A stretch of DNA of 64,000 nt, from the NCBI RefSeq assembly GCF_947493565.1, contig NZ_CANLRG010000001.1, positions 1 to 64,000 of the forward strand, in the 5' to 3' direction. The stretch is from an uncultured Lutibacter sp. (GTDB lineage: Bacteria; Bacteroidota; Bacteroidia; Flavobacteriales; Flavobacteriaceae). A program made the position numbers and the translations under genes. Below, one piece after another: positions 10,244 through 33,903 of this stretch (its first letter is position 1; each line of letters opens with the position of its first letter). The notes under the pieces are model-generated. The model made no database searches. It was not told the DNA's origin and worked only from the letters and a program-made list of their open reading frames with translations.

Positions 10244-10290
10244 TACCACAACATTACCACAACATGTTATTAACTATAACCTTATAGTTA
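10244..10290. promoter_or_regulatory. Candidate operator: tandem 11-base direct repeat plus inverted repeat
   Basis: TACCACAACAT occurs twice in exact tandem (10244-10254 and 10255-10265), one helical turn apart. Five bases later comes a perfect inverted repeat TAACTATAA-CC-TTATAGTTA (10271-10290). The array lies between the HTH regulator and susC, about 210 bases before the susC start, and is unusually GC-rich for this spacer. Likely binding site for the adjacent regulator; this is inference from position and symmetry. Confidence 0.55.
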
Positions 10291-10499
10291 TAAATTTTAT
10301 CAAATATTTTTTTCTTATTTTAAGTAGGTTAAAATTCTATTAAAAACACTGAATTTATTCAATTTGATATAAAATTAACATTCATTATTATTCTTTTTAA
10401 AAAGGAAAGATTTATAAACTGTATGTTTTTTGTATAGGTAGCTTTTTAGATTTAAGGAAATTTTAGCACTAGTTTTATTAAAACTTAACTCATCAATAT

Positions 10500-13541: not shown

Positions 13542-13552
13542 TACGTATTAAA

Positions 13553-15046: not shown

Positions 15047-15060
15047 AATACACGATTATT

Positions 15061-17109: not shown

Positions 17110-17130
17110 AAATAATTTTAAAAGTAAATT

Positions 17131-18798
17131 ATGAAAAATATAAAATATATATTAGGTCTTTTTCTTACATTAACGCTTGTAGTTAGTTGTGAAGAAGAAA
17201 AATATGAATTTGGAGATATAGTTGCTCCCTCAAATGTCCAAGTAACTGCAGAAATTATCGGGCAAGATTTGAGTAATCCTGATCTGTTAAATGGTGATGG
17301 AACAGGTTTTGTAACATTTACAGCTGTTGCGGATAATGTTATAAGCTATAAATTTAATTTTGGAGATGGTTATGTTGAAGTTGCTCCATCTGGAAAAATT
17401 ACGCATCGATTTACCAAAGTAGGAGTAAATAACTTTACTGTAGTTGTTAGTGCAATAGGTACTGGAGGGGTTACATCAACTACTACTGTTGATATAGAGG
17501 TATACAGCTCATTTACTGATGCAGAAGCCGAAGATCTTTTAAGTGGAGGTGTTATAGGTGAGGGTAAAACTTGGTACTGGGCATCTGATTTACCATTGCA
17601 TGTTGGTATGGGACCTGCAAATGATGATTACGGTGGAGGTGAATTTGCTTGGCCAAATTGGTGGAATGCAATACAACCTTGGGATGATGAAAAATCTTGT
17701 ATGTATGCTGATGAGTTTGTATTTACTAAAACAATAAATGGCATTACATTTGAACAGACTGCTGGACCAGCGTTTATTCCTGGAACTTATGCGGGTGTAT
17801 TAGGTGTTGATGGAGATACGTGTCATGATGAAACTGTTGCAACAACAATGTATGGAGTTAAAAATGTTTCTATGTTTCCTTCATCTACCAGAGCTGCATT
17901 GGAAGGAAATTACTATGACACAGCATATAGACAAACATCTTTTGAAATATCAGATGGAGGATTCTTAGGATGGTATGTAGGTTCAGGTACTTATGATATT
18001 ATTAGCATATCTGAAGATTATTTATTAGTTAGAGTTGAAGAAGCTTCGTCTGTTGGAGCTGCTTGGTATCAATTATTTACCTCTACAAAACCAGTACAGG
18101 AAACAGGATTTTCAGAATTGGTATGGTCAGATGAATTTGATACAGATGGAGCTCCAGATGCTTCAAAATGGACATACGATCTTGGCGATGGAGGCTGGGG
18201 AAATGGTGAAGAACAAACCTATACAAATAATGCAGAAAATGTTTCTATAACAGATGGTATTTTAAAAATTACAGCTAAATCAGATGGAAATGGAGGTTAT
18301 ACTTCAGCAAGATTAAAAACTCAAGATTTATATAGCTTTACTTATGGTAGAGTTGATGTAAGAGCAAAATTACCAGCTTCTCAAGGAACTTGGCCTGCAA
18401 TATGGATGCTAGGAGATAGTTTTAGTACTGTTGGATGGCCTGCTAGTGGTGAAATAGACATTATGGAACAAACAGGTGCTGATAAAAATAATACTTTAGG
18501 AACTTGTCACTGGTTTGATTCTGGAACTAATGCAAATGCAAGTTATGGTGAAACTACAGCTGTAGTAAATACTTCAACAGAGTTTCATGTTTATTCTTTA
18601 GAATGGACTGAAGACTCACTTAAAATATTTGTTGATGACATAAAATTTTATGAACTGGCTAATAATGGAGATTTACCTTTTAACGATAATTTCTTTATGA
18701 TTTTAAATGTTGCAATGGGAGGATCTTTAGGAGGAACAATAGATGCTGGTTTTACAGAAGATTCTATGGAAGTGGATTATGTAAGAGTTTATCAATAA
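17131..18798 (+). CDS. Surface beta-1,3-glucanase (GH16 laminarinase) with PKD and binding domain
   Basis: 555 residues. Lipoprotein (FLTLTLVVSC), PKD domain (~35-125, YKFNFGDGYVEVAPSGKITH), a ~180-residue domain rich in Trp and Gly (~130-315, e.g. GKTWYWASDLPLHVGMGPAN, WPNWWNAIQPW), then GH16 (~325-555). Catalytic motif GEIDIMEQ: nucleophile Glu441, Asp443, acid/base Glu446, the beta-bulge type typical of laminarinases. It should cut beta-1,3-glucan at the outer membrane before SusCD import. The middle domain resembles glycan-binding regions of SusE/F-like proteins. A hairpin without a T-run follows. Confidence 0.92.
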   Translation: MKNIKYILGLFLTLTLVVSCEEEKYEFGDIVAPSNVQVTAEIIGQDLSNPDLLNGDGTGFVTFTAVADNVISYKFNFGDGYVEVAPSGKITHRFTKVGVNNFTVVVSAIGTGGVTSTTTVDIEVYSSFTDAEAEDLLSGGVIGEGKTWYWASDLPLHVGMGPANDDYGGGEFAWPNWWNAIQPWDDEKSCMYADEFVFTKTINGITFEQTAGPAFIPGTYAGVLGVDGDTCHDETVATTMYGVKNVSMFPSSTRAALEGNYYDTAYRQTSFEISDGGFLGWYVGSGTYDIISISEDYLLVRVEEASSVGAAWYQLFTSTKPVQETGFSELVWSDEFDTDGAPDASKWTYDLGDGGWGNGEEQTYTNNAENVSITDGILKITAKSDGNGGYTSARLKTQDLYSFTYGRVDVRAKLPASQGTWPAIWMLGDSFSTVGWPASGEIDIMEQTGADKNNTLGTCHWFDSGTNANASYGETTAVVNTSTEFHVYSLEWTEDSLKIFVDDIKFYELANNGDLPFNDNFFMILNVAMGGSLGGTIDAGFTEDSMEVDYVRVYQ

Positions 18799-18825
18799 TT
18801 GAGTTTTTAAAATAGATTTGATTTA

Positions 18826-18854
18826 AAAGGTCAGAAAATACTATTCTGACCTTT
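18826..18854 (+). other. Intercistronic hairpin after the GH16 gene
   Basis: An 11-bp perfect stem AAAGGTCAGAA / TTCTGACCTTT with a 7-base loop. It is followed by CATCAA, not a T-run, so it is a poor intrinsic terminator. It may stabilise the upstream susCD-GH16 mRNA or partially attenuate transcription into the GH30-MFS segment. Confidence 0.55.
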
Positions 18855-18934
18855 CATCAAATTTTAAAACTTTTGATAAAGTCAAACAAAAAATGTTTCA
18901 CTGTTAATACCTATAATAACTTTATTCAACTTTA

Positions 18935-20428
18935 ATGTTTAGATATTCTAAAAATAGAAACTTACTAGGATTATTTTGCCTGTTAGTAGCCTTGTTTACT
19001 AGCTGTAATACTTCTAATTTTAAAAATAATGATGTTAATAAAGATATCGTTGAAACTCTTTTATTAACGAAAAATGAAATTTTTCAAACGTCATCAAAAA
19101 CAACACAAAAACTAGAAAGCATAGGAAGTATAAAATTTAATTCGCTTAAGCAACCATTTGAAACGGATGTAGCAATTTTTGTTAATACTTCCAAACAATT
19201 TCAAGAGTTTATTGGGATAGGTGCGGCACTTACCGATGCATCAGCCGAGACATTTTTCAAGTTAAGTGAAGATCAACAAAGACGTTTTATGGAAGCTTAT
19301 TTTAGCTTAGATAAAGGTATTGGTTATTCGTTGGCAAGAACCATAATACATAGCTGTGATTTTTCAAGTGAAAGTTACACTTATGTTGAAGAAGGAGATG
19401 AAAAATTAGAAACTTTTTCAATTGCCCATGATAAAAAATATCGTATACCATTTACTAAAAAAGCTATTGAAGCTGCTGGTGGTAAATTGTTAATGTATGC
19501 AAGCCCTTGGAGTCCTCCTGCATTTATGAAAACAAATAATAGTATGTTACAAGGAGGAAAATTAAAATCTCAATTTTATCAGCCTTGGGCAAATTATTAT
19601 GTAAAGTTTATTAAGGCATATGAAACAGAAGGAATTCCAATTTGGGGATTGTCTATTCAAAATGAACCAATGGCTGTACAACGATGGGAATCTTGTATAT
19701 ATACTGCTGAAGAAGAGAGAGATTTCTTAAAAAATTATTTAGGACCTACGCTTGAAAAAGAAGGTTTGGGAGATAAAAAAATTATTGTTTGGGATCATAA
19801 TAGAGATTTACTTTTTGATAGAGCAAGTGTAATTTTAAAGGATCCTGAAGCCAGTAAATATGTTTGGGGTACAGGATTTCATTGGTATGAAGATTGGAAA
19901 GATGGAACGCCAATGTTTAAAAATGTAGCTGCTGTAAATGAAAGTTTTCCAGATAAAAAATTAATTTTTACAGAGGGTTGTAACGAAGCTTACGATATAA
20001 ATAGAATAGGAGATCCAAAACTGGCAGAACGTTATGCAAAAGCAATGATTAACGATTTTAATAATGGAACAGTAGCTTGGACAGATTGGAATATCTTGCT
20101 GAACGAAACTGGTGGCCCAAACCACGTTGGAAACTTATGTTTTGCTCCTGTTCATGGCAATACACAAACAGGAGAACTTACTTTTACAAACTCGTTTTAT
20201 TACATTGGTCATTTTTCAAAATTTATTAGACCTGGAGCTAAACGAATCTCTACTGGATCAACATCAAATAATTTAAGCGCAACATCATTCAAAAATATTA
20301 ATGGAAGTATTGTAATAGTTGTTTTAAACGAAAACGATGCTGAAATAGATTACAGACTTACAATTGATAATCAAACTTCAAATGTTAAAATATCAGGTAG
20401 ATCAATTCAAACGATTATTTTAAACTAA
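18935..20428 (+). CDS. GH30 family beta-glucanase/glucosidase (probably beta-1,6 active)
   Basis: 497 residues. Lipoprotein signal (LLVALFTSC), then a GH30 TIM barrel with a C-terminal beta-sandwich. Landmarks: FIGIGAALTDASAETFFKLS, SPWSPPAFMKTN, acid/base Glu244 in SIQNEPMAVQRW, nucleophile Glu347 in FTEGCNEAY, and GHFSKFIRPGAKRI. In characterised laminarin loci, GH30 enzymes remove beta-1,6-linked glucose branches; that activity is inferred here from context. It is 6 bases upstream of the MFS gene. Glucosylceramidase-type annotation is a family name only. Confidence 0.88.
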   Translation: MFRYSKNRNLLGLFCLLVALFTSCNTSNFKNNDVNKDIVETLLLTKNEIFQTSSKTTQKLESIGSIKFNSLKQPFETDVAIFVNTSKQFQEFIGIGAALTDASAETFFKLSEDQQRRFMEAYFSLDKGIGYSLARTIIHSCDFSSESYTYVEEGDEKLETFSIAHDKKYRIPFTKKAIEAAGGKLLMYASPWSPPAFMKTNNSMLQGGKLKSQFYQPWANYYVKFIKAYETEGIPIWGLSIQNEPMAVQRWESCIYTAEEERDFLKNYLGPTLEKEGLGDKKIIVWDHNRDLLFDRASVILKDPEASKYVWGTGFHWYEDWKDGTPMFKNVAAVNESFPDKKLIFTEGCNEAYDINRIGDPKLAERYAKAMINDFNNGTVAWTDWNILLNETGGPNHVGNLCFAPVHGNTQTGELTFTNSFYYIGHFSKFIRPGAKRISTGSTSNNLSATSFKNINGSIVIVVLNENDAEIDYRLTIDNQTSNVKISGRSIQTIILN

Positions 20429-20434
20429 ATTATT

Positions 20435-21952
20435 ATGAATAAATCATATACTATTACCATCAGTTTTATTGTAGCTTTAGGCGGTTTTCTTCTAGGTTTT
20501 GATAGTGCTGTTATTTCTGGAGCTATAACAGGAATCAGGTCTTATTTTGAAATGTCTGATTGGGAGCTTGGTTTTTCAGTAGGTTGTGTCATTTTTGGGG
20601 CTATGGCTGGAAATATTTTTGCAGGACCACTAAGCGATAAATATGGAAGAAAAAAACTATTAATAGTTACAGCAATATTGTTTACAGTTTCAGCAACATG
20701 GTCTGCATTAGCAACCAATTACATTTCATTTGTAATAGCAAGAATAATTGGAGGAGTTGGTATAGGAGGCGCAATTTTAATAGCTCCAATTTATATTGCA
20801 GAAGTTGCTCCGCCAAAATTAAGAGGAAGTTTAGTTTCTTTAAATCAATTAAACATAGTTATAGGTATTTCAGTTGCTTATTTTTCAAATTATTTTTTAA
20901 AAGATATTGAAGGAGAGAGTTGGAGATGGATGTTAGGAGTTGAAGCAATTCCTGCATTCTTATATTTTTTAGCGCTATTTATAGTGCCTAGAAGCCCAAG
21001 ATGGCTAATTCAAAAATTGAATCGAGTAGATTTGGCTGAAAAGATATTGAACAAAATTGGAGGTAAACAATTTGCTAAAATTACGATTGAAGAAATTCTA
21101 AGAGGAGTTGCTAAAAAGCAAGCTAAAGGAACTTATGCAGATTTTTTTAGTAAAAGAATGACCACTGTCGTAATCATTGCATTTGGATTGGCATTTTTTC
21201 AACAAATTACAGGGATAAACGCTATTTTTTATTATGCTCCAACTATTTTTGAACAAGCCGGAGGCAGTACAGATTCATCATTTTTACAGGCAATAGTTGT
21301 AGGTCTTACTAATTTGGTTTTTACACTGGTTGCAATTAGGTTAATTGATAAATTAGGTAGAAAGCCTTTATTGATAATTGGAACTTCTGCTATGACTATT
21401 GCCTTGACTATGGCAACATTAGCATTTAACAATGCAACGTATGATTTTAATGAAAACAATCTTCAAAAAATTGAAAATAGCGAGTTAAAATTAGCGCTTA
21501 ATCAAATAAAAGGAACTTCATTTAATTCACAGAATGAATTGTTTGAAAATTTAGAACAAATTTTAACTAAAGAACAGCTTTTTAACTTCAAAAGATACGA
21601 GGTAAAAAACTTTATAAGTATTAATGCAACCTTAGTATTAATTGCAATTTTATTATATGTAGCTGCATTTGCAATCTCATTAGGACCTGTAATGTGGACA
21701 ATGTTATCAGAAATTTTCCCTGGAAATGTGAAAGGAATAGCTATTTCAGCAGTTGGTTTCTTTAACTCTTTAGTAAGTTATACGGTGACTCAATTTTTCC
21801 CTTGGGAATTGACCAATTTAGGACCTACAATTACCTTTGCTATTTATGCATTAATGGCAGTATTATCCTTATTGTTTGTATTAAAATACATAGTTGAAAC
21901 CAAAGGAAGAAGTTTAGAAGAAGTTGAAGAATTATTAATGAGAGTAGAATAA
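20435..21952 (+). CDS. Sugar porter family MFS transporter
   Basis: 505 residues, 12 membrane segments. Sugar-porter signatures: GPLSDKYGRKKLLIV, PRSPRWLI (PESPRWL variant), FQQITGINAIFYYAPTIFE, and the C-terminal ETKGRSLEEVEELL. It moves glucose or small oligosaccharides across the inner membrane, usually with H+ or Na+. An unusual insertion of about 65 residues (~332-396) sits in the loop between TM9 and TM10. Spacing of 6 bases from GH30 and 1 base to the next gene shows an operon. With the downstream phosphorylase it provides a cytosolic route. Confidence 0.92.
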   Translation: MNKSYTITISFIVALGGFLLGFDSAVISGAITGIRSYFEMSDWELGFSVGCVIFGAMAGNIFAGPLSDKYGRKKLLIVTAILFTVSATWSALATNYISFVIARIIGGVGIGGAILIAPIYIAEVAPPKLRGSLVSLNQLNIVIGISVAYFSNYFLKDIEGESWRWMLGVEAIPAFLYFLALFIVPRSPRWLIQKLNRVDLAEKILNKIGGKQFAKITIEEILRGVAKKQAKGTYADFFSKRMTTVVIIAFGLAFFQQITGINAIFYYAPTIFEQAGGSTDSSFLQAIVVGLTNLVFTLVAIRLIDKLGRKPLLIIGTSAMTIALTMATLAFNNATYDFNENNLQKIENSELKLALNQIKGTSFNSQNELFENLEQILTKEQLFNFKRYEVKNFISINATLVLIAILLYVAAFAISLGPVMWTMLSEIFPGNVKGIAISAVGFFNSLVSYTVTQFFPWELTNLGPTITFAIYALMAVLSLLFVLKYIVETKGRSLEEVEELLMRVE

Positions 21953-21953
21953 G

Positions 21954-23267
21954 ATGAAAAAAATAATTGGACTAGTTATTGCTATTTTTCTTTTTGTTGG
22001 TTGTAAGGACAATCAATCAAAAAGTGAGCAAATAATCACAAAAAATAAACCTGTAAAAGTCACACTTAAAAAAGAAAATGGAAAATTTCAATTGTATGTA
22101 AATAACAAACCATTTTATATAAAGGGAGCTGGTTTAGAACACGGTAATATTGAGTCATTAGCGAAACATAAAGGAAATTCTTTTAGAACTTGGAGAACAG
22201 AAAATGGGAAAAAAAGTGGAAAAGAAATTCTAGATGAGGCTTATAAAAATGGGCTAATGGTTGCAATGGGAATTGAAGTTGGTAGAGAAAGACATGGTTT
22301 TGATTATAATGATACAATTGCAGTAAATAACCAGCTAGAAAGAATTAAAAAAGAAGTATTAGCATTAAAAGATCATCCAGCTTTACTTTTATGGGGTATT
22401 GGAAATGAGTTGAATTTAAGATATACAAATCCTAAAGTTTGGAATGCAGTTAATGACATTTCTAAAATGATTCATAAAATTGATCCCAATCACTTAACTA
22501 CCACTAGTTTGGCAGGAATTTCTAAAAATGAAGTTGATTTAATAAAAGAGCGTTGTTCAGATTTAGATATATTGTCTTTACAAATGTATGGAGATTTACC
22601 AAACTTGCCCAAATTAGTTAGAGAATTTGGTTGGGAAGGTGCTTATATGGTTACAGAATGGGGAGCAACAGGACATTGGGAAGTTCCTAAAACAAGTTGG
22701 GGAGCTCCAATTGAAGAAAACAGCACTTTAAAAGCAGCTAATTATTTAAAAAGATACCAAAAAGGTATTCAAGCAGATACTTTGCAATGTATAGGTTCTT
22801 ATGTTTTTCTTTGGGGAAATAAACAAGAACGAACCCCTACTTGGTATGGTATATTTTTAGAAAATGGAGATGAAACAGAATCGGTTGATGTAATGCATTA
22901 TATTTGGAATGGTACATGGCCTCAAAATAGAACACCACAAATAAAAGCATTTACCTTAAATGGAAAAACAGCCTACGAAGATGTAATTTTTAAATATGGA
23001 GATGAAGGAACCGCTTCAGTTAAAATTTACGATTTTGAAAATGATGCTATTAAATATTCTTGGGAAATTTTACCTGAAAGCACTGATTTACAAGATGGTG
23101 GAGATTACGAAGAACGACCTAAAGCGATTAGTGTAGAAGTGATTAATGAGGACAATGGTGAGTATGTTTTTAAAACGCCAAAAAAGGGTATTTATCGTTT
23201 ATTTGTTTATGCAAGTGATGGAAATGGACATGCTGCAACAGCAAATATTCCTTTTAAAGTAGAATAA
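21954..23267 (+). CDS. Glycoside hydrolase, GH2-type TIM barrel (GH158-like, probable beta-1,3-glucanase)
   Basis: 437 residues. Lipoprotein (AIFLFVGC). A clan-A TIM barrel (~35-320) with acid/base Glu152 in LLWGIGNELNLRY and nucleophile Glu235 in MVTEWGATGHWEV, followed by an Ig-like domain (~340-437). It lacks the sugar-binding and sandwich domains of full GH2 enzymes. The 83-residue spacing of the two glutamates, the C-terminal Ig-like domain and the locus suggest GH158, a family with endo-beta-1,3-glucanases; this family call is inference. It is one base after the MFS gene and ends before a terminator. Confidence 0.7.
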   Translation: MKKIIGLVIAIFLFVGCKDNQSKSEQIITKNKPVKVTLKKENGKFQLYVNNKPFYIKGAGLEHGNIESLAKHKGNSFRTWRTENGKKSGKEILDEAYKNGLMVAMGIEVGRERHGFDYNDTIAVNNQLERIKKEVLALKDHPALLLWGIGNELNLRYTNPKVWNAVNDISKMIHKIDPNHLTTTSLAGISKNEVDLIKERCSDLDILSLQMYGDLPNLPKLVREFGWEGAYMVTEWGATGHWEVPKTSWGAPIEENSTLKAANYLKRYQKGIQADTLQCIGSYVFLWGNKQERTPTWYGIFLENGDETESVDVMHYIWNGTWPQNRTPQIKAFTLNGKTAYEDVIFKYGDEGTASVKIYDFENDAIKYSWEILPESTDLQDGGDYEERPKAISVEVINEDNGEYVFKTPKKGIYRLFVYASDGNGHAATANIPFKVE

Positions 23268-23291
23268 TAAAAAAATATCATAGTTAAAAAT

Positions 23292-23324
23292 AAAACCTCT
23301 TTCAGTAACTTTAAGAGGTTTTTG
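23292..23324 (+). terminator. Rho-independent terminator inside the glucan locus
   Basis: 10-bp stem AAAACCTCTT / AAGAGGTTTT, 11-base loop, then a short T-run ending TTTTTG. It separates the GH16-GH30-MFS-GH158-like segment from the phosphorylase-GH16-GH3 segment. Confidence 0.7.
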
Positions 23325-23360
23325 TAATACCAAAAAATAGTTAAAATTAAACTAAGTCAA

Positions 23361-26300
23361 ATGTATATAGGAAAAAATAAAGCCTTTATTGAAGCTAATG
23401 TAGTGGCTGGTGAAATGATAAATTTAAATAATGAAAGCTATTATAAAATTTCTAATGTAGACCAAATGAGGCCTTTTTTTATGAGCATTGTTAGTGACTC
23501 TAATCATTGGATGTTTATAGCAAGTAATGGAGGTTTAAGCGCTGGAAGAAAAAATAGCGATTTAGCACTTTTTCCATATTATACAGACGATAAAATTACA
23601 GAATCTTTTGAAATTACAGGAAGTAAAACAATTTTAAAAATTGAAATCGACTCAAAAAAATACTTATGGGAACCTTTTTCAGAAACCCAAAAGAGTATTT
23701 ATAATATTTCAAGAAATTTATATAAAAATAGCTATGGAAATAAATTAATTTTTGAAGAAATTAATAATGATTTAAGTGTAATTTTTAGATATGAATGGAA
23801 TTCTAGCAATAGGTTTGGCTTTGTCAAAAAATCAACAATTATAAATAACAACCACCAAAGTATTCAAGCTCAAGTTTTAGATGGAATTCAAAACATTGTT
23901 CCTTATGGAGTTTCTGCAGAGATGCAAAATACAAGAAGTAATTTAGTAGATGCATATAAAAAAAATGAACTTGAAGAGGAAGTAGGAATTGGAATTTATG
24001 CTTTGAGTGCAATTATAGTCGATAAAGCAGAACCAAGTGAAGCTTTAAAAGCTACTATTGCTTGGTCTTTAGGAATTAAAAATCCAACCTACTTATTATC
24101 CTCATTGCAATTAAATAACTTTAGAAAAGAAGTAAAAATTACCCAAGAAACAGATATAAAAGCTGAAAAAGGAGCTTATTTTACTTGCTTTAAAACCAAA
24201 ATAGCGTCAAATAATTCAACTTCCTGGATGCAAGTAGCAAATGTAAATCAAACAATTAGTGCTATTTGCGAAATTTCAGAACAAATTAAAAATAATAAAA
24301 ATCTTCAAAGGTTAGTAGAAGAAGATATTGATCTAGGAACCAAAAGATTAATTGAGCTTTCGGGGAACTCAGATGGGATACAGTTAACTTCAGATACGTT
24401 AGTAAATACTAGGCATTTTTCTAATACGCTTTTTAATATCATGCGTGGAGGAATTTTTGATGATAATTACCAGATTGAAAAGAAAGACTTTACTGCTTAT
24501 ATTTTAAATGCAAATAAAAAAGTTTATAAGAAAAAAGAACAATTTTTAAAGCAGATTCCAAATAAATTTTCATTAGAATTATTAAGAGAAACTGCAAAAA
24601 ATCAAGAAGATAAAAACTTTAGAAGACTGTGTTTTGAGTATTTACCGTTAAAATTTAGTAGAAGACACGGAGATCCAAGTAGACCTTGGAATAAATTTTC
24701 AATTAATACCAAAAGTGAAATAGATGGTTCTAAAATATTAGATTATGAAGGGAATTGGAGAGATATATTTCAAAATTGGGAAGCTTTAGCACATTCATAC
24801 CCTAATTTTATTGAAGGTATGATTCATAAGTTTTTAAATGCTACAACCTTTGAAGGCTATAATCCATACAGAGTTACAAAAACAGGTTTTGATTGGGAGG
24901 TAATTGAGCCTAATGATCCTTGGTCGTTTATTGGTTATTGGGGAGATCATCAAATCATTTATTTATTGAAGTTTTTAGAATTTAGTGAAAATTATTTTCC
25001 AAATGAATTAAGCAACTATTTTAACCAAGACTTATTTGTTTATGCCAATGTTCCTTATAAAATTAAAAGCTATTCTGAAATTTTAAACAATCCAAAAGAT
25101 ACCATAGAATTTGATGTTGAATTAAACGAAAAAATTAATCAAAAAAAGCTTGAATTAGGTTCAGATGGAGCATTGTTAAGAGACGAGAATTTCTTTATTC
25201 ACAAAGTAAATTTAATAGAAAAATTGTTAGTTCCTGTATTGGCTAAAATCTCAAATTTTATTCCAGAGGCTGGAATTTGGCTAAATACACAACGGCCAGA
25301 GTGGAATGATGCCAACAATGCACTAGTTGGTAATGGAGTTTCTATGGTAACGTTGTATTATCTAAACCGTTTTATAACATTTTTTGAAGACCTTGTTCAA
25401 AAAAATAATACTATTGAAAAAACTGAAATTTCTGAAGAACTGTATATGTTTTTTAAAGAAGTAGTTAAAACATTTACTGAAAATGAACATGTGTTAAATG
25501 GAAAAATATCTGATAGAAAACGTAAAACAATTTTAGATGGTTTAGCAACAGCAGGAAGTTCATATAGAATGAGTGTGTATAACAAAGGATTTACAAGTAA
25601 TAAAATAGCCATTACTAAAGCCGAACTTTTAGAATTTTTTAAACTTTCAAAGTTTTTTATAGATCATACAATTAGGGAAAATAAGAGAGAAGATAAACTT
25701 TATCACTCCTATAATTTAATTTATATTAAAAATGAATTGGAAATTTCGATTTCTCATTTACCTGAAATGCTAGAAGGTCAAGTAGCTGTATTAAGTTCAG
25801 GCGCTATTTCTACCATTGAAAGTTTAGAAATTATAGATTCTTTAAGAAACAGTGCATTGTATAGAGAAGATCAGAATAGTTATTTATTATATCCAAACAA
25901 AGAATTAGCTCGATTTACTGAAAAAAATACAATTCCTAAAACTAAAGTGAATAATTCTAAGTTTCTACAAACACTTCTAAAAAATGGAAATACACAAATT
26001 ATTGAAAAAGATATCCAAGGAAACTATCATTTTAATGGAAATTTCAATAATGTAAAATGTCTTAAAAAAGCATTGTTAGAATTAAATTCAGATACATATT
26101 CCAATTTAATTTTGAAAGAAAAAGAATATTTATTTAGTCTTTTTGAAGAAGTTTTTAACCATAAGGCATTTACTGGAAGATCAGGTACTTTTTTCGGATA
26201 TGAAGGGTTAGGCTCTATCTACTGGCATATGGTTTCAAAGCTTTTATTGGCAGTTCAAGAAAATTGTGTACAGGCAGTTGATAATAATGAAAGTATAAAA

Positions 26301-26810
26301 TTAATAAATCAATTAAATCATCATTATCACGAAATTAATAAAGGGATAGGAGTTCATAAATCTCCAAAAATTTATGGGGCGTTTCCAACAGATCCATATT
26401 CGCACACACCTGCAGGAAAAGGTGCTCAACAACCAGGAATGACAGGACAAGTTAAGGAAGATGTAATTTGTAGATATGGAGAGTTAGGAATATTGATTAA
26501 AGATGGGAAATTACACTTTAATCCATTTTTATTAAAAAGAACTGAATTTTTACAAAAATCAAGTGCTTTTAAGTATACAGCAATAAGTAAAGAGCTTAAA
26601 GAACTTATTTTAAAGAGCAATAGTCTTTGTTTTACATATTGTCAGATTCCTATCATTTATAAATTGGGTACAAAAAAACAACTAGAAGTAATATTTAGTA
26701 ATGGTGCTAAAAAGAAGTTAAACCTGTTAAGTTTGCCAAAAATTATAAGTAATCAAATTTTTAGTAGAACAGGAGAAATTGAGAAAATAATAGTGTCAAT
26801 TTTAAAATAG
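23361..26810 (+). CDS. GH94-clan glucan phosphorylase, probably GH149 (beta-1,3-glucan phosphorylase)
   Basis: 1149 residues without signal peptide, so cytosolic, unlike the other CAZymes here. An N-terminal beta-sandwich (~1-330) precedes an (alpha/alpha)6 barrel. QRPEWNDANNALVGNG resembles the GDWNDGMN catalytic Asp motif of GH94-type phosphorylases, placing the acid at Asp650; GYWGDHQIIYLLKF and GAQQPGMTGQVKEDVICRYG are further conserved blocks. GH149 proteins are about this long and use phosphate to release glucose-1-phosphate from beta-1,3-glucans. The family is inferred from length, motif and neighbours. It is followed 2 bases later by a GH16 gene. Confidence 0.72.
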   Translation: MYIGKNKAFIEANVVAGEMINLNNESYYKISNVDQMRPFFMSIVSDSNHWMFIASNGGLSAGRKNSDLALFPYYTDDKITESFEITGSKTILKIEIDSKKYLWEPFSETQKSIYNISRNLYKNSYGNKLIFEEINNDLSVIFRYEWNSSNRFGFVKKSTIINNNHQSIQAQVLDGIQNIVPYGVSAEMQNTRSNLVDAYKKNELEEEVGIGIYALSAIIVDKAEPSEALKATIAWSLGIKNPTYLLSSLQLNNFRKEVKITQETDIKAEKGAYFTCFKTKIASNNSTSWMQVANVNQTISAICEISEQIKNNKNLQRLVEEDIDLGTKRLIELSGNSDGIQLTSDTLVNTRHFSNTLFNIMRGGIFDDNYQIEKKDFTAYILNANKKVYKKKEQFLKQIPNKFSLELLRETAKNQEDKNFRRLCFEYLPLKFSRRHGDPSRPWNKFSINTKSEIDGSKILDYEGNWRDIFQNWEALAHSYPNFIEGMIHKFLNATTFEGYNPYRVTKTGFDWEVIEPNDPWSFIGYWGDHQIIYLLKFLEFSENYFPNELSNYFNQDLFVYANVPYKIKSYSEILNNPKDTIEFDVELNEKINQKKLELGSDGALLRDENFFIHKVNLIEKLLVPVLAKISNFIPEAGIWLNTQRPEWNDANNALVGNGVSMVTLYYLNRFITFFEDLVQKNNTIEKTEISEELYMFFKEVVKTFTENEHVLNGKISDRKRKTILDGLATAGSSYRMSVYNKGFTSNKIAITKAELLEFFKLSKFFIDHTIRENKREDKLYHSYNLIYIKNELEISISHLPEMLEGQVAVLSSGAISTIESLEIIDSLRNSALYREDQNSYLLYPNKELARFTEKNTIPKTKVNNSKFLQTLLKNGNTQIIEKDIQGNYHFNGNFNNVKCLKKALLELNSDTYSNLILKEKEYLFSLFEEVFNHKAFTGRSGTFFGYEGLGSIYWHMVSKLLLAVQENCVQAVDNNESIKLINQLNHHYHEINKGIGVHKSPKIYGAFPTDPYSHTPAGKGAQQPGMTGQVKEDVICRYGELGILIKDGKLHFNPFLLKRTEFLQKSSAFKYTAISKELKELILKSNSLCFTYCQIPIIYKLGTKKQLEVIFSNGAKKKLNLLSLPKIISNQIFSRTGEIEKIIVSILK

Positions 26811-26812
26811 TT

Positions 26813-27574
26813 ATGAAAAAGTACTTACTAATTTTAGTAGTAACATTCTTGCTTTTTTCTTGTAAAACGAAACAAGAATTAATTTGGGAAGAAAATTTTG
26901 AAGGTACAAGTTTAAATAATAATTTTTGGAATTTTGAATTGGGAGATGGTTGCCCAAAGCTATGTGGATGGGGAAATAATGAAAAACAGATTTATACTAA
27001 AAATAATCACACCTTAAAAAATGGTTTTTTAACAATTACGGCAAAACTTGAAGATTCAATTTATACTTCAACTAGGATTACTACTAAAAATAAAATTGAA
27101 TTTCAATATGGCAAAATTGAAGTGAGGGCAAAGTTGCCTTTAGGAAAAGGCTTATGGCCTGCATTTTGGATGCTAGGAAGCAATATAGATGAGGTTAAAT
27201 GGCCGCTGTGTGGTGAAATTGATATTTTAGAATATGTTGGCCGTGAACCTGAAAATATTTTTACAACAGTACATACACAAGACAGTTATGGAAACTCTAA
27301 AAATACTCGAAAAGCTAAAATTCAAGGGATTGAAAAAGGATTTCATATATATGCTGCTAATTGGACCCCTAATAAAATAGATTTTTTAATAGATAACCGA
27401 TTATTTTATACCTATAAACCAAAAAATAAAACCGTAGAAACTTGGCCTTTTAATCAACCTTTCTATATAATTGTTAACCTAGCAATAGGAGGTAATTTTG
27501 GAGGGAATGATATTGATAATACTATTTTTCCTAAAGATTTTGTATTGGATTATATACGAGTCTATAAAAATTAA
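26813..27574 (+). CDS. GH16 beta-glucanase lipoprotein (second copy)
   Basis: 253 residues: lipoprotein signal (LVVTFLLFSC) and a single GH16 domain, without accessory modules. Catalytic motif GEIDILEY: nucleophile Glu135, acid/base Glu140, the laminarinase beta-bulge type. It has WAPAFWMLG-type substrate strands (LWPAFWMLGS) and ends in the family strand DYIRVYKN. It differs from the larger GH16 (17131-18798) and is probably the trimming endoglucanase for imported oligosaccharides or a second surface enzyme. Stop and GH3 start are 13 bases apart. Confidence 0.92.
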   Translation: MKKYLLILVVTFLLFSCKTKQELIWEENFEGTSLNNNFWNFELGDGCPKLCGWGNNEKQIYTKNNHTLKNGFLTITAKLEDSIYTSTRITTKNKIEFQYGKIEVRAKLPLGKGLWPAFWMLGSNIDEVKWPLCGEIDILEYVGREPENIFTTVHTQDSYGNSKNTRKAKIQGIEKGFHIYAANWTPNKIDFLIDNRLFYTYKPKNKTVETWPFNQPFYIIVNLAIGGNFGGNDIDNTIFPKDFVLDYIRVYKN

Positions 27575-27587
27575 AGAACTCTTTCTA

Positions 27588-29894
27588 ATGAAAATATTAA
27601 TTCAAATAATTATAGTCTTTTTAATATTTACAAGCTGTAATAACCATGAACAAATCGTTGAAACACAAATTAAAATAAGTGAATTTCAAACAGATGAAAC
27701 AGAACTAAAAATTAAAAAGTTAGTATCAAAAATGACCTTAAAAGAAAAGGCTGGTCAAATGTTAAATATTGGTTTGCCAGCTATTTTAACAGGTGATTAC
27801 TGGGATGTGAGAGATAGTGCTGTTTTTGATAGTATAAAATTTAAAAAATTTATCATAGATTATGCGGTGGGATCAATCCATAATACACCAGGATATCCAG
27901 CTTTTAAAGAAGATTGGCATAGAATTATAAAGAAAATTCAAGATTCGGCGATGCAGCACACTCGATTAAAAATTCCTGTATTATACGGAATTGATAATAT
28001 TCATGGAGCTAATTATGTTAATGAATCAGTAATATTCCCACATCAAATTGCGGTAGCAGCAACTTGGAATCCTGGATTATCCAAACTTGGAGCTAAAATT
28101 ACGTCTTACGAGTCTAGAGCAGCATCATTACCTTGGAACTTTAATCCGAATGCAGATGTAGCAGTAAATCCACTTTGGGGAAGAATTGCTGAAAGTTATG
28201 GTGAAGATCCATATTTAATTTCTGAGATGACAAATGCTTATATTGAAGGCTCTCAGGAAGAAGGGTTACAAAGTCAATTTTCAACAGCAGTATGCGTAAA
28301 ACATTTTTTGGGTTATGGAGCAGGTAAAAATGGGAAAGATCGTGCCAATGCGTTGATTCCTGAAAATAATTTACGTCAGTATTTTTTACCACCTTTTGAA
28401 AAAGCAATTCAAAAAGGTGCTATGGGTGTTATGGTCAGTTCTAATGCTGTAAACGGTATTCCTTGTCATATAAATAAGTATTATATTACTGATATTTTAA
28501 AAGAAGAATTAGGTTTTAAAGGTGTTGTAATTTCAGATTTTAGTGATGTTGAATTTTTGGTTGAAGCTCATCAATCTGCTAAAGATATGCGTGAAGCTAC
28601 TAAATTAGCAGTAAATGCTGGTTTAGATTTATTGATGAATCCATACGACGCTGATATTGTAGATATAATAGTTGAATTGGTTGAAACTGGTGATATATCT
28701 ATGCGCAGAATTGATGATGCGGTTACACGTATTTTACGTTTGAAATTTTACCTAAACCTTTTTGAAAACCCTTATACTAATCCCAAAGACTATCCAAATG
28801 TTGGAAATGAAAAACATATTAAAGCAAACTATCAAATAGCCAGTGAATCAATTACTTTATTAAAAAATAAAGGGAATATTTTACCTCTTACAAAAGCTTC
28901 AAAAATAGTTGTTACTGGTTACGCTTCAAATTCTATAAATATATTGAATGGAGCTTGGTCGAGATCATTTTTAGGAAGAGATACCACCTATAACGATTCA
29001 AGTAAATTAACAGTAGTACAAGCAATTGAAAAGCATATTGGAGCAGCCAATGTGACATATGTAGAAGGAACTGATTATTTGAACGATGTTAATTCAAATT
29101 TAGCAGTTTCTAAAGCAGGTAATGCAGATATAATTATAGTTTGTGTTGGTGAAATTCCTGCTTCTGAAAAGCCTTCAGATATTAATGAACTGGAATTGCC
29201 AAGAGTACAACAAGAATTAGTTGAGAAATTAGCTAAAACTGGAAAACCAGTTATTTTAGTGATGGTTCAAGGTCGCCCAAGAATTATTAAAGATATTGAA
29301 CCTTTAGTTGATGGGATTTTAATGGCTTATTTACCTGGTCAAGAAGGAGGAAGAGCCATATCTGATGTGCTTTTTGGAAAAATTAATCCAAGCGGAAAAT
29401 TACCATATACGTATCCTAAATATTCTGGAAATGCACTAACCTATTATCACAAAAAAACAGATATAAGAGATGTTAATTGGGGGTATGATGGGTTTTATCC
29501 TCAGTTTGAGTTTGGATACGGTTTATCTTATACAACCTTCGAGTACTCAAATTTTCATATAAATAAAGATACTTTATATAGATCAGATCAATTTAATGTT
29601 TCAATTGATGTAAAAAATACTGGTAAAATTAAAGGGAAGGAAATTGTTGAGTTGTATTTAAAAGATATGGTTGCTATTTTATCTCCTGATTCTAAAAGGT
29701 TAATACGTTTTCAAAAAGTAGATTTAGAGGTAGGAGAAAGCAAAACAGTAAATTTCACCCTATCACTAAACGACTTAAAAAGTATTGATATAAACAATAA
29801 TTGGACGGTAGAAGAAGGTGAGTTTGAACTGCAAATAGGAGGAAACCCATCAGAATTAAAAACTAAGAAAATATTTTTTACTAAAGGAAATTAA
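27588..29894 (+). CDS. GH3 beta-glucosidase
   Basis: 768 residues from the ATG at 27588 (lipobox IVFLIFTSC). Order: GH3 N-terminal TIM barrel (VLYGIDNIHGANYVNESVIF, CVKHFLGYGAGKNGKDRANA), nucleophile Asp317 in GVVISDFSDVEF, GH3 C-terminal sandwich domain (ILPLTKASKIVVTG, LPGQEGGRAISDVLFGK), and a fibronectin-III-like domain (~680-768). It should release glucose from laminari-oligosaccharides in the periplasm. It is the last gene of the glucan locus. Confidence 0.93.
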   Translation: MKILIQIIIVFLIFTSCNNHEQIVETQIKISEFQTDETELKIKKLVSKMTLKEKAGQMLNIGLPAILTGDYWDVRDSAVFDSIKFKKFIIDYAVGSIHNTPGYPAFKEDWHRIIKKIQDSAMQHTRLKIPVLYGIDNIHGANYVNESVIFPHQIAVAATWNPGLSKLGAKITSYESRAASLPWNFNPNADVAVNPLWGRIAESYGEDPYLISEMTNAYIEGSQEEGLQSQFSTAVCVKHFLGYGAGKNGKDRANALIPENNLRQYFLPPFEKAIQKGAMGVMVSSNAVNGIPCHINKYYITDILKEELGFKGVVISDFSDVEFLVEAHQSAKDMREATKLAVNAGLDLLMNPYDADIVDIIVELVETGDISMRRIDDAVTRILRLKFYLNLFENPYTNPKDYPNVGNEKHIKANYQIASESITLLKNKGNILPLTKASKIVVTGYASNSINILNGAWSRSFLGRDTTYNDSSKLTVVQAIEKHIGAANVTYVEGTDYLNDVNSNLAVSKAGNADIIIVCVGEIPASEKPSDINELELPRVQQELVEKLAKTGKPVILVMVQGRPRIIKDIEPLVDGILMAYLPGQEGGRAISDVLFGKINPSGKLPYTYPKYSGNALTYYHKKTDIRDVNWGYDGFYPQFEFGYGLSYTTFEYSNFHINKDTLYRSDQFNVSIDVKNTGKIKGKEIVELYLKDMVAILSPDSKRLIRFQKVDLEVGESKTVNFTLSLNDLKSIDINNNWTVEEGEFELQIGGNPSELKTKKIFFTKGN

Positions 29895-30192
29895 CTAAAG
29901 TTTATAAAGCTTATTTTTTTATTAAAAAATAATATTTACTTAATGTTAATATTTAATAAGTGTAAAAAAATTATTAAACATTTTTATTGTGTTTTAAAAC
30001 ATTATTGGTTAAAATTGCACTTAAATTAATTGAATTTTAAAGAATTCTAATTAGTTTATTATTTTTTAAAATGATAAGTATCGAGTTTTCAAGTGTTTAT
30101 TTTACTGATTCAATTCAATATTTTTATAAAAAATAATTTCATCAAAAATAAATCTATTAAATACCTACATTTGTTTCCAATTTAATTTTCTA
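29895..30192. other. AT-rich intergenic region before the deletion scar
   Basis: About 300 bases with no supportable gene. It holds a weak A/T-only hairpin just after the GH3 stop and, near its end, a -7 element. Probably the original upstream region of the truncated ECF sigma gene. Confidence 0.6.
30166..30173 (+). promoter_or_regulatory. -7 promoter element upstream of the truncated sigma gene
   Basis: TACATTTG matches TAnnTTTG, 19 bases before the ATG at 30193. No TTG is found at the expected -33 distance. After the deletion this promoter would drive the susC tail, susD and possibly the TlpA gene. Confidence 0.5.
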
Positions 30193-30315
30193 ATGCAAAA
30201 ACCAAAAAAAATTAACCAAAAGTTATTATTAGAAAAACTCAGCAGAGGTGATGAAACTGCGTTGGTAACTATTTATAAAGAGTATTGGGAAATTATGTAT
30301 TTGGCTGCATATTAA
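30193..30315 (+). pseudogene. ECF sigma factor gene, N-terminal 40 codons only
   Basis: Reads LLEKLSRGDETALVTIYKEY then WEIMYLAAY and stops. This matches region 1.2/2.1 at the start of FecI-type ECF sigma factors (LFxxYYxxLxxxAY). The conserved DxxDxVQEVF segment that should follow about ten residues later is absent; instead the DNA continues, in another frame, as the tail of a susC gene. ECF sigma plus FecR anti-sigma often precede susCD in Bacteroidota. Confidence 0.7.
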
Positions 30316-30536
30316 CAGAAGACGCTTCACACATAAGGTTTCAAGAGGTGAATTTAACGTATAATGTACCAACAAAATTTATTGATAAAATTGGTTTAAA
30401 TTCAGCTAGAGTTTATACACAAGCTAATAATCTTGGAACCATTTTATTTAATGATTTTGGTGAAGATCCTGAATACCCAAGAGGTACTATTAAGCCGCAA
30501 ACAACAGTTACGTTTGGAGTTCAATTAAATTTTTAA
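30313..30536 (+). pseudogene. SusC/RagA transporter gene, C-terminal ~75 codons only
   Basis: The frame reads TEDASHIRFQEVNLTYNVPT and ends TVTFGVQLNF, the C-terminal barrel strands of SusC proteins; the intact SusC at 10500 has YVEDASYVRIQNIQLGYTF at the same place, about 85 residues from its end. No signal peptide, plug or start codon in context is present, so no functional transporter can be made. The break with the sigma fragment lies between about 30308 and 30320. The intact susD follows 11 bases later. Confidence 0.85.
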
Positions 30537-30547
30537 AATAGAAACAC

Positions 30548-32077
30548 ATGAAAAATTTTAAATATATAATATTATTAATTTTAATAGTAAACTTAGTAGC
30601 AAGTTGTAATGATTTTTTAGATGAAGAACCATCAAAATCTACAGCTACTGTCCCTGATAAATTAGAACATTTAGAAGCACTACTTAATAACTATGGTGAG
30701 TTTTATAGTGAACCAGCCTCCGAGTTAATTTTTTCAACAGATGACTATGGTTTTATAACTGATTTATATGATGCTTCAACGAGCTCATACAGTCTTACTT
30801 CATTACAATATGGTACATGGGACAAAGAATATTTACCAAATACCAATAGACCTTATTGGCCACGTGAATGGGAGAAAATTTTTACCGCAAATTTAGTAAT
30901 GCAAAATTTAGGAAGTGTTGCAGGAGAGGATACTGAAAAGAAACAAATTAAAGCAGAAGCACATTTTATTAGAGCCTATAGCTATTTTCAATTAGCAAAC
31001 ATTTATTGTTTACCTTATACAGAAGGAAATAAGCAAGAGCTAGGACTTCCAATAAAAGAAACTACCAGTTTTGAAGAAAGCATGGAAAGAGTAAGTTTAG
31101 AGGATACTTGGAAATTTATTGAATCTGACTTAAATAAAGCTTTAGAATTAACACGTTCTTTTACTCAAGTAAATGATTTAAACCGTACTTGGAGAGCAAG
31201 TACAGCTGCTGTAAATGGTTTTGCGGCACGTTATTATTTAGCATTAAATGATTATGAAAAAGCTCAATCTTATGCTCAAGAAGCATTAAATGAATATGAC
31301 TTTTTAAGAGATTATAATACAGATATGAGTTTTTCTAATGCACCTACGCAAGTAACTATATTTAATCCTGAGCCTACTCAAGTGAGTATTGATTTTCCAT
31401 ATACACATGATTCACAAGAAGCTGATTTAATGTTAGCTTGGGGAGAATCGTATTACTTTAGAGCGTTATCAAATGGCTCTTGGAAATATTGGCCATCTGA
31501 AGAGTTATTATCACTTTATAATCAAACTTATGATTTAAGGTTTAAATACCATATGGTTGAAGGATATTCATACGAACAAGCAAATGCTGTAGATCCTCCT
31601 TACAATTACCCAGGCTATGTTTTCTTTCATAGATCAGACATCTTAAGTGGTCCATCAGTACCAGAAATGTTATTAATTTTAGCTGAATGTCAAGTTAGAA
31701 CAGGAGCATATGCACAAGGTATTCAAACAATCAATCAATTAAGGGCAAGTAGAATGGATGCGTCTGCACCTTCAGAAATAATTAATTTAAGTGCCGCTTC
31801 ACAAGCAGAAGCTTTAGTGAAAGTTTTAGAAGAGCGAAGAAGAGAAATGCCTTTTGTACATAGATGGTATGATATTAGACGCTATAATAACAATGAAGAT
31901 AGCTCAGATGATGTTGTTGTAACTAGAACTTTTTACCCTTATAATGGAAGTTCAATTTTAGGAGCAGAAACACCTGTAAATTTTTCATTAGAAAAAAACT
32001 CAAGAAGGTATGCTAATCCACTACCTGATACCGATATTATAGCCTCGGACAATGTTTTAAAACAAAATACTTATTAA
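30548..32077 (+). CDS. SusD/RagB family lipoprotein, orphaned by loss of its SusC partner
   Basis: 509 residues. Lipobox IVNLVASC, N-terminal DFLDEEPSKST, helical SusD core (KAEAHFIRAYSYFQLANIYC) and the C-terminal signature LILAECQVRTG and LEERRREMPFVHRWYDIRR. The gene itself is complete and shows no stop or frameshift, though its SusC partner is reduced to a tail. It has low similarity to the SusD at 13553. No CAZyme lies nearby, so the original cargo may have been non-glycan or the enzymes were elsewhere. A strong terminator follows. Confidence 0.92.
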   Translation: MKNFKYIILLILIVNLVASCNDFLDEEPSKSTATVPDKLEHLEALLNNYGEFYSEPASELIFSTDDYGFITDLYDASTSSYSLTSLQYGTWDKEYLPNTNRPYWPREWEKIFTANLVMQNLGSVAGEDTEKKQIKAEAHFIRAYSYFQLANIYCLPYTEGNKQELGLPIKETTSFEESMERVSLEDTWKFIESDLNKALELTRSFTQVNDLNRTWRASTAAVNGFAARYYLALNDYEKAQSYAQEALNEYDFLRDYNTDMSFSNAPTQVTIFNPEPTQVSIDFPYTHDSQEADLMLAWGESYYFRALSNGSWKYWPSEELLSLYNQTYDLRFKYHMVEGYSYEQANAVDPPYNYPGYVFFHRSDILSGPSVPEMLLILAECQVRTGAYAQGIQTINQLRASRMDASAPSEIINLSAASQAEALVKVLEERRREMPFVHRWYDIRRYNNNEDSSDDVVVTRTFYPYNGSSILGAETPVNFSLEKNSRRYANPLPDTDIIASDNVLKQNTY

Positions 32078-32092
32078 GCTGATTTTCATTTG

Positions 32093-32132
32093 GTTTCACT
32101 GGTGTTTTTGTTAGCGCCAGTGAAACTTTTTT
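32093..32132 (+). terminator. Rho-independent terminator after the orphan susD
   Basis: 12-bp stem GTTTCACTGGTG / CGCCAGTGAAAC (one G-T pair), 10-base loop, then six T. It ends the susD transcript before the TlpA-like gene. Confidence 0.85.
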
Positions 32133-32234
32133 AATTAAGCTTAAATTTATAGTATTCAAATTATTGTATTTTTTTCAACAAAAAAATTCTTTTTAAAAGA
32201 GGTGTTGAACTAATTAATTTTTAAAAATTTTTAT

Positions 32235-33623
32235 ATGAATTTTAAATCTTTAATTCTTTTGTTTGGTGTAGTTATTTTTACAATTTCTTGTAAGGATTCA
32301 GCTAATAAAGATAAAAAATCTAAAAAAGTGACTCTAGTTGGAACGATAGCCAATTATGAACAAGATACTTTATATTTAAAAAATATAACAGCTAAAAATA
32401 CCTTATATAAAGATATTGTTTATGCTATTCCTTTAATAAATAAAACAAATTTTAATTTTACCTTCGACCTAGAAGAACCAAACTATTTTCAATCTGGTAG
32501 AACTTTTTTTTATTTAACTCCAGGCGATAGTTTAGTTGCAAATATTGATACTAAAGGAAGAGATTTAGCCTCATTTACAGGAAAAGGAGCTGAAGCTAAT
32601 AATTTTTTAAGAAAATTGCCGTATCCAAAAGGAGGTTCTTACTGGGGAAATAAAGAGTTGTCAGCAAATATTAAGTCTTATAAAGACATGCCAGAGACTT
32701 TTAAAATAGTTGTAGAGGATCGTTTAAATGTTTTAAGGGCACTCACTAATGTTTCTGATGAATTTAAACGTTTAGAGAGTTCTCGTATTAATTTTGATTA
32801 TGTAAATACCTTGAAATCTACTACATATCTTTATTATTATAAATTGAGATCAGGAGATATTACAGAAGAGCAATATAATACCTTAACCCAAGAAGCTTCA
32901 GAATATTTAACACCATTTATGGAGTCTTATTTAAAAGATTTTAATAGTACAGATTATTTACAACTAGAAGTCTTTCAATCAATTTTATATTATTTAAAAG
33001 ATGATTCATTTAGAGCTAAACTTAATTTGCCTGAATTAAGCGAAGAATTAAAGGAATATATTGTTACAGGCAATTTGATTTCAGAATTCTCTAAAGAAGG
33101 TTATTCAAAAGCTTTTAAAGAAAAATTAAATCAAGAAAAAAGTAAAATTAAGAATCAGGAATATATAAATGCAATTGAATTTAAAGAGAAAGAATATGAA
33201 GCTATAACTGAGGGGAGTCCAGCATCTGATTTAAAATTTAATAAGTTGGATGGAAGTACTGTTAATTTAAGTGATTATAAGGGAAAAGTTGTAGTTATTG
33301 ATTTATGGGCAACTTGGTGTGGCCCTTGTATGGCTGAAAAGCCATCTTTTGAGGCTTTAGAAGAAAAATTTCATAATAATGATAATGTAGAATTTATTTC
33401 ACTTTCTATAGATACAGAAAAAACTTGGAAAAAATATTTTGAAAAGAATGAAGTAAAAGGGAATCAGCTTCAAATATATAGAAATGAGCTTTCAGATTAT
33501 ATGGTTGTTAGTATCCCACGTTTTTTTGTAATTGATAAAGATCAAAAAATTGTGGATGTATTTGCTCCTTGGCCATCGTCTGGTAAACTTGAAGAAATGA
33601 TTAATAATATTTTAAATAAGTAA
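32235..33623 (+). CDS. TlpA-like thioredoxin-fold lipoprotein
   Basis: 462 residues. Lipobox VVIFTISC, a ~300-residue N-terminal region with a DUF4369-like beta start and a helical middle, then a TlpA/AhpC-TSA thioredoxin domain (~325-462) with DLWATWCGPCMAEKPSFEAL, the CxxC redox pair, and the cis-Pro strand SIPRFFVIDKD. Such proteins act as periplasmic thiol-disulfide reductases and often accompany SusCD loci in Bacteroidota. It is separated from the orphan susD by a terminator, so it probably has its own promoter. Confidence 0.88.
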   Translation: MNFKSLILLFGVVIFTISCKDSANKDKKSKKVTLVGTIANYEQDTLYLKNITAKNTLYKDIVYAIPLINKTNFNFTFDLEEPNYFQSGRTFFYLTPGDSLVANIDTKGRDLASFTGKGAEANNFLRKLPYPKGGSYWGNKELSANIKSYKDMPETFKIVVEDRLNVLRALTNVSDEFKRLESSRINFDYVNTLKSTTYLYYYKLRSGDITEEQYNTLTQEASEYLTPFMESYLKDFNSTDYLQLEVFQSILYYLKDDSFRAKLNLPELSEELKEYIVTGNLISEFSKEGYSKAFKEKLNQEKSKIKNQEYINAIEFKEKEYEAITEGSPASDLKFNKLDGSTVNLSDYKGKVVVIDLWATWCGPCMAEKPSFEALEEKFHNNDNVEFISLSIDTEKTWKKYFEKNEVKGNQLQIYRNELSDYMVVSIPRFFVIDKDQKIVDVFAPWPSSGKLEEMINNILNK

Positions 33624-33777
33624 CTTGTAAGTATAAAGCATTATTTTATTAATACTAGCTTTTATATTATTGCTATGAGGAAAATTGCAAAATGAATGGT
33701 AGCCTACAAAAATGAACATTTAACTTTTTAAATAAAAAATAAGTTTTTAATATCTAAAGTATTGTTTGTTTTAAATT

Positions 33778-33814
33778 TAAAAAGCGATTTAGGAAACCCT
33801 AAATCGCTTTTTTT
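33778..33814. terminator. Bidirectional terminator between the TlpA gene and tRNA-Met
   Basis: 13-bp stem AAAGCGATTTAGG / CCTAAATCGCTTT with a 4-base loop and flanking A and T runs on both sides. The two genes converge here. Confidence 0.85.
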
Positions 33815-33829
33815 AATAGTGTAATTTTG

Positions 33830-33903
33830 TAGCGTGATGCAGAATTGAACTGCAGACCTCCGGGTTATGAATCCGACGCTCTAACCAACTGAGCTACCAC
33901 GCC
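33830..33903 (-). tRNA. tRNA-Met (anticodon CAT), probably elongator
   Basis: 74 nt. On the minus strand: acceptor GGCGTGG / TCACGCT (two wobble pairs at the ends), D-stem GCTC/GAGC, anticodon loop TTCATAA, T-arm TGCAG-TTCAATT-CTGCA, discriminator A; CCA not encoded. The anticodon stem has an A-C mismatch at its loop end. It lacks the three G-C pairs of initiator tRNA. A CAT-anticodon tRNA-Ile2 is the alternative and would need sequence comparison. Confidence 0.9.

Follow-up and report, generated by a model that had tools for sequence, protein, structure and literature searches.

FecI/FecR-type signalling is a relay in which a transporter senses its substrate and FecR passes the signal to a sigma factor, as described, with FecA of E. 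coli as the example, in PMC11658791; the same paper describes SusD as the lid of SusC. By analogy, signalling of the FecA type would extend to SusC, and a locus from which sensor, relay, sigma factor and pore are gone should therefore not work. Complete FecI/FecR-type SusC/SusD loci of Bacteroidota (TIGR02985, PF04773, TIGR04056, SusD) are found in Cellulophaga (L051, L053), Polaribacter (L052), Tamlana (L060), Flaviramulus (L056), Seonamhaeicola (L058), Maribacter (L059) and others. The surviving ends of the locus reported here are like these in identity and order. Unlike them, it lacks the sigma factor past codon 40, the whole of fecR and about 94% of susC.

A susC or susD without its partner is not rare, since about one in ten PULDB loci (3,317 of 30,951, according to PMC6499787) is set aside for lacking adjacent susC and susD. 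The present locus resembles those in its missing partner, but here the cause can be read at base level. Among the titles and abstract openings listed in searches of an open-access library, we found no description of a scar of this kind. We analyzed a 64,000-nucleotide stretch of an uncultured Lutibacter sp. genome (the window; its features are collected in Table 1) and put the probability that two gene pieces were joined by a deletion in a sigma-FecR-SusC-SusD locus at about 90%. The scar is probably real, clean and recent, and as a kind of event it would be ordinary pseudogenization. Its use is to show, base by base, how a SusC/D system under signal control can be lost, with one illegitimate join removing sensor, regulator and pore. 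An intact lipoprotein gene is left over that annotation could still count to a working uptake locus, a caution that susD alone is no basis for inferring uptake.

Table 1. Features in and around the scarred locus (window positions)
Feature	Position	Strand	Evidence
Accessory block holding the scar	7243..33779	.	Left flank to 7243 and right flank from 33779/33778 both present in congeners G011 and G007
Possible -7 box of the former sigma gene's promoter, TACATTTG (weak)	30166..30173	+	Box match
First 40 codons of ECF sigma factor gene	30193..30312	+	Custom sigma profile, shuffles, G385 sigma alignment
Probable deletion joint	30311..30312	.	At most 1 bp shared; compared with 5 sigma and 14 SusC relatives
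Last 74 codons and stop of SusC/RagA TonB-dependent transporter gene	30312..30536	+	TIGR04056, 14-relative alignment
TAA stop ending the sigma piece, one codon past the joint	30313..30315	+	Reading frame
Intact SusD lipoprotein gene, SusC partner now missing	30548..32077	+	PF14322, PF07980, L050 identity
Terminator-like stem-loop, 15 pairs, then T run, after susD	32092..32127	+	
TlpA-like thiol-disulfide oxidoreductase gene	32235..33623	+	Thioredoxin-like domains
tRNA-Met (cat) at accessory block edge	33829..33903	-	

The start of a sigma factor and the end of a SusC

The first piece is a plus-strand reading frame that opens with ATG at 30193 and has TAT at 30310 to 30312 as its last codon. 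Standard libraries did not pick up these 40 residues, neither Pfam (E up to 1) nor NCBIfam (E up to 10) reporting the piece. We scored the 691 stop-to-stop window frames of at least 30 amino acids with a custom profile built from 41 sigma factors of loci L050 to L091. The piece ranked first of the 691 with an E value of 1.9e-5, the next frame reaching 0.15, and its score of 18.6 bits compared with 9.9 for the top one of 2,000 shuffles of the piece. With a profile score above all shuffles and all other window frames, chance resemblance to a sigma factor was rejected, and the piece was assigned to the N-terminal stretch of a Bacteroidota ECF sigma factor (TIGR02985). The remaining sigma domains are absent from the window, where no other frame came up to the profile's inclusion threshold; in a sigma search of the genome, none of the matches listed lies on contig C1 below 122 kb.

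In a search of 397 family genomes, the closest sigma relative was G385:C3:58908-59018, with 54% identity and an E value of 1.1e-8. Aligned directly, the two share 56% over 36 amino acids, and the alignment ends in a common YWE.MYLAAY exactly at the end of the window's piece. The 40-residue query gave E values of 1e-4 or better in three of these genomes (its own, G298 and G385). Within the genus, 15 of 38 genomes matched at an E value of 0.01, the top match besides the scar being one of 46% in G012. The intact sigma factor on contig C3 of the same genome is 37% identical to the piece (E = 3.1e-5). Among the 41 profile sigmas, those of L060, L088, L084 and L054 come nearest, the L060 sigma at only 33% identity. 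An earlier note on this DNA had taken the 40 codons for an ECF sigma start and had staked its reading on a sigma match; the profile and the G385 alignment supply one.

The second piece consists of 74 codons (30312 to 30533) followed by a stop at 30534 to 30536. It matches TIGR04056 of NCBIfam at profile positions 907 to 981 of 981 (E = 1.4e-14; score 53.5, against a cut-off of 368), which corresponds to the C-terminal barrel end of SusC/RagA; with 74 codons only, there is no signal peptide, plug domain or main barrel. In an alignment with 14 relatives, homology runs from the Leu codon at 30312 through the C-terminus, at an identity of 58 to 65% to L043 through L046, 52% to L047, and 41 to 42% to L048 and L049. 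Going by sequence, we regard its identity as a SusC end as certain; a SusC end of about 75 codons, in another frame behind the sigma start, is also what the earlier note had described.

The gene behind the joint had been called an intact susD, and its frame indeed runs for 509 codons without a stop and encodes both SusD domains, N- and C-terminal, above the Pfam cut-offs (PF14322, E = 6.9e-27; PF07980, E = 2.7e-11). The protein is 67% identical to the SusD of the Cellulophaga locus L050. A search of solved structures returned general SusD-family entries only (15 sequences, best E value 7e-28).

The joint at base level

The ends of the two homologies were compared base by base with relatives. 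Directly behind the last Tyr codon that matches, five of five sigma relatives have A, versus T at 30313 in the window; the base before the SusC Leu codon is T or C (a Tyr codon) in 14 of 14 SusC relatives, versus A at 30311. Sigma DNA therefore ends no later than 30312, and SusC DNA starts no earlier than 30312. Homologies to two genes that lie apart in relatives thus come together at one base, with zero or one base shared and no filler. The joint had been placed at about 30308 to 30320; the comparison puts it at 30311/30312. A 3-bp joint at TAT from which one T was lost later is possible too, so the loss may have taken more than one step.

We considered whether the assembler had joined two separate places while the missing genes are still in the cell, which we regard as highly improbable. 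In its favor, the genome is a draft of 37 contigs. Against this, the joint has at most 1 bp in common, so there is no repeat to collapse, and repeat collapse was rejected as unlikely on that ground. The site also lies 30 kb inside a 420-kb contig; the sole other match to the scar region in this genome, among the candidates scored, is 37 bp of AT-rich spacer at 86%; and the lost susC and fecR were found on no other contig. A read-level chimera or a strain-private change may also be the source of the joint.

The preferred reading, a deletion by which an ECF sigma start came to adjoin a susC end, agrees with the one proposed earlier. It draws on the cluster layout in relatives, on homologies that end at the same base and on a search of the genome in which the lost genes were not found elsewhere.

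Intact clusters in relatives and the size of the loss

A scan with a susD alignment, one genome per species, gave 80 loci, of which 42 (L050 to L091, with SusD 40 to 67% identical) were tabulated and 38 (L092 to L129) left out. Upstream genes were counted in the 38 tabulated loci with at least 7.5 kb of upstream sequence, L066, L068, L070 and L073 being too short there. A susC stands before susD in all 38, though L050, L071 and L084 have it in two pieces; upstream there is a fecR in 37 and a sigma gene in 35. L087 has neither fecR nor sigma, and L071 and L081 have no sigma within this distance. The comparison with intact relatives that had been recommended thus shows the expected sigma-FecR-SusC-SusD clusters. 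Congeners offered no such counterpart: among 60 genomes searched for this SusD, including its own and 36 congeners, only its own matched at a threshold of E 1e-30. A search with the scar DNA found only short matches elsewhere, of 22 to 91 bases. Where candidates were scored, at most three per genome were taken, so orthologues may have been missed.

Three further observations concern these relatives. The susC genes in two frames lie at 6351-9989 in L050 (with an in-frame TAG), 6399-9889 in L071 and 6349-9989 in L084, and may be broken copies as well, or else reflect sequence errors. In a separately fetched set, G200 (L043 12114-14132) has FecR, SusC, SusD and TlpA and no adjacent sigma. Locus L235 (G385:C3:42001-62000) carries two more sigma-FecR-SusC-SusD modules directly after its orthologous cluster, making at least three in a row.

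By a plain deletion, the joint can arise only from a layout with a co-directional sigma gene. Among the closer loci, the sigma gene is co-directional in L054, L055, L059 and L060 and divergent in L050 to L053, L056, L058 and L061. In a SusD tree, the window groups with L052, L055, L056, L058, L059, L060 and L061 (support 0.99), and this group contains both arrangements, co-directional in L055, L059 and L060 and divergent in L052, L056, L058 and L061. The four loci whose SusD is most similar, Cellulophaga L050, L051 and L053 and Polaribacter L052, have a divergent sigma from which a simple deletion cannot give the joint. The stretch equivalent to the loss measures 5,316 bp in L054, 5,125 bp in L055 and 5,271 bp in L060; that of L088, a fourth co-directional locus, was not measurable by the motif used.

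The ancestor would have carried, in one direction, an ECF sigma gene, an anti-sigma fecR, a susC of about 1,200 codons, susD and tlpA, the layout seen in L054 and L060. The two breaks, one in sigma codon 40 and one 74 codons short of the susC end, would have been joined with 0 to 1 bp in common. From such an ancestor the join would have removed about 5.1 to 5.3 kb, or more if it spanned two tandem modules, and would have left a 40-codon sigma stub, an out-of-frame SusC tail, and intact susD and tlpA. The lost part of susC had been put at about 900 codons; with 74 codons left, and with the 1,203-residue SusC of L060 as the measure, about 1,130 is the better figure.

The deletion could instead have run across two tandem modules, with the sigma start from one, the SusC tail from the next, and roughly 10 kb or more lost. 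We hold this to be possible, if the less likely course. The best sigma relative (56% over 36 amino acids) heads a module that directly follows the orthologous SusC/D cluster in G385, another module comes behind that one, and the relatives of highest SusD identity carry a divergent sigma of another type. However, a G385 module downstream of the orthologous SusC/D is in the wrong order for the joint, and in L054 and L060 a single module combines this SusC/D with a co-directional sigma of the same subtype in front. Given the layout of these two loci, we prefer the single module by roughly two to one. Relatives of tlpA fit both models, occurring in the L044 and L052 clusters and behind a different SusC/D in G012.

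The missing genes in the rest of the genome

The missing parts were also looked for elsewhere in the genome. The genome has 13 SusC-family loci above the family cut-off. Their best matches to nine SusCs of the lost type were 25 to 27% identical over about 470 to 1,270 amino acids or 36 to 43% over 365 to 421 amino acids, versus 51 to 81% among the nine themselves (the L050 member being a piece of 836 amino acids) and 43 to 48% between these and the more distant L088. Thus no orthologous SusC was found among the 13 loci compared. FecR genes (PF04773) occur in the whole genome as the copies on contigs C2 and C3 only, each inside a complete sigma-FecR-SusC-SusD set, and none lies between the sigma and susC pieces. 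Two sigma factors of the genome exceed the family cut-off, and these are the partners of the C2 and C3 FecR. With no orthologous SusC and no spare FecR, transfer was rejected. As no SusC, FecR or sigma of the lost type is found elsewhere, the middle of the locus therefore appears gone. That the rest of sigma and the fecR were lost, as the earlier note had it, likewise agrees with the stop of the frame at 30313 to 30315 and with the confinement of FecR to C2 and C3.

Two other family matches in this genome each contain one TAA inside the matched stretch: a SusC match, L137 (G000:C10:1598-4726), and a sigma-family match, L211 (G000:C4:174416-174871). Both are possibly further pseudogenes.

Consequences for the remaining genes

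Without SusC, the SusD lid would have no pore to cover and a sigma factor would receive no surface signal. By what is known of SusC/D and FecI/FecR biology, the system should then be nonfunctional and susD a passenger that is expected to decay. So far, decay looks slight. The SusC tail has no internal stop and none of its 20 columns invariant among 16 relatives (L050 to L065) is changed; in SusD, 3 of 115 invariant columns are changed, compared with 0 to 10 of 112 to 122 in the 16 relatives. Relative to the identity predicted from SusD, the tail deviates by a mean of -0.19 standard deviations; against the six closest relatives it falls 0.6 to 1.7 standard deviations below prediction, and it may have undergone slight relaxed change. 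In 1,000 trials of simulated neutral change, which start from today's sequence and ignore insertions and deletions, the tail stayed as intact in 7% at 0.05 changes per site and in 1.4% at 0.08; susD stayed as intact in 5.5% at 0.02 per site. Given that SusD and the SusC tail are little decayed, the loss is therefore young or SusD still under selection: the deletion is probably recent relative to the divergence from these relatives or, for susD only, selection continues.

The earlier note had further proposed that the promoter of the regulatory gene now lies in front of susD. By position it is plausible, though unproven, that susD is now driven from there; the promoter searches gave no signal above chance. 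A box of the form TANNTTTG, the flavobacterial primary -7 box according to the part of PMC9723704 used here, is present upstream of the sigma piece at 30166 to 30173. Such boxes are not more frequent in the window than expected (128 found, 130 expected), and there is no TTTG partner 15 to 25 bases upstream of this one.

We weighed the idea that the remodeled locus is in use, the sigma promoter giving signal-independent SusD (and perhaps TlpA) that serves another SusC or has a binding role, and judge it improbable. It would account for a SusD without stops or excess change at conserved columns, and for an intact susD start region and terminator-like hairpin behind susD. Recency, however, accounts for the intactness equally well, and the promoter searches show nothing above chance. 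The other SusCs of the genome are also distant from the lost type, a SusD of the same type without SusC has decayed in G080, and the hairpin separates susD from tlpA. It is slightly less probable still that the deletion was kept for its rewiring, with the sigma promoter making SusD without a surface signal and SusD acting as partner of a foreign SusC or binding at the surface on its own.

The G080 locus (L042 9342-10781) is like ours in having an orthologous SusD (64%) without a co-directional SusC or FecR in front. Unlike ours, it has also lost homology to the first 29 SusD codons and carries an in-frame TAA, and its upstream sigma, a complete one, adjoins a different FecR-SusC-SusD set in divergent orientation. 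We read this wreck, from its gene order and sequence, as an independent second loss, which suggests that the system was lost at least twice in the family.

The tlpA gene probably belongs to the same cluster as susD. Relatives of it stand directly after the orthologous susD in L043 (48%) and within the cluster at 55 to 56% in L052 and L044/L056. A 55% relative also terminates a different sigma-FecR-SusC-SusD cluster in the congener G012 (L236), so tlpA is not exclusive to this system. Since the hairpin at 32092 to 32127 lies between susD and tlpA, the latter probably has a promoter of its own.

Genomic setting

The surroundings were compared with those of the eight congeners whose sequence reaches far enough upstream of the corresponding tRNA-Met, L198 being too short and left out. 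Between the flanks lie about 270 bp in G011 and 780 bp in G007, versus ~26 kb in the window. In the six others, the window's left flank is absent from the ~17.5 kb fetched and other genes are found there; one of the six, L200, has a different SusC/D locus at the same spot. By Pfam, the block in the window contains SusC, SusD, two GH16, GH30, a sugar transporter, a GH2-like gene and GH3 in addition to the scarred locus, and the GH3 gene upstream of the scar ends at 29894. Going by gene sets of this kind, the substrate of the polysaccharide locus may be laminarin. Together, the polysaccharide locus and the scarred locus would form an accessory block of roughly 26 kb at a variable site, judging from these comparisons. 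No attachment repeats were seen, in that 7201 to 7500 and 33601 to 33960 have no common word of at least 11 bases. The gene beside the tRNA-Met in the congener locus L195, which had been taken for an integrase, was dropped as such, having no Pfam match. Between the upstream SusD and GH16, a PKD-domain protein (15022-17109) has two tandem domain copies that are identical at 119 of 134 residues, as if recently duplicated.
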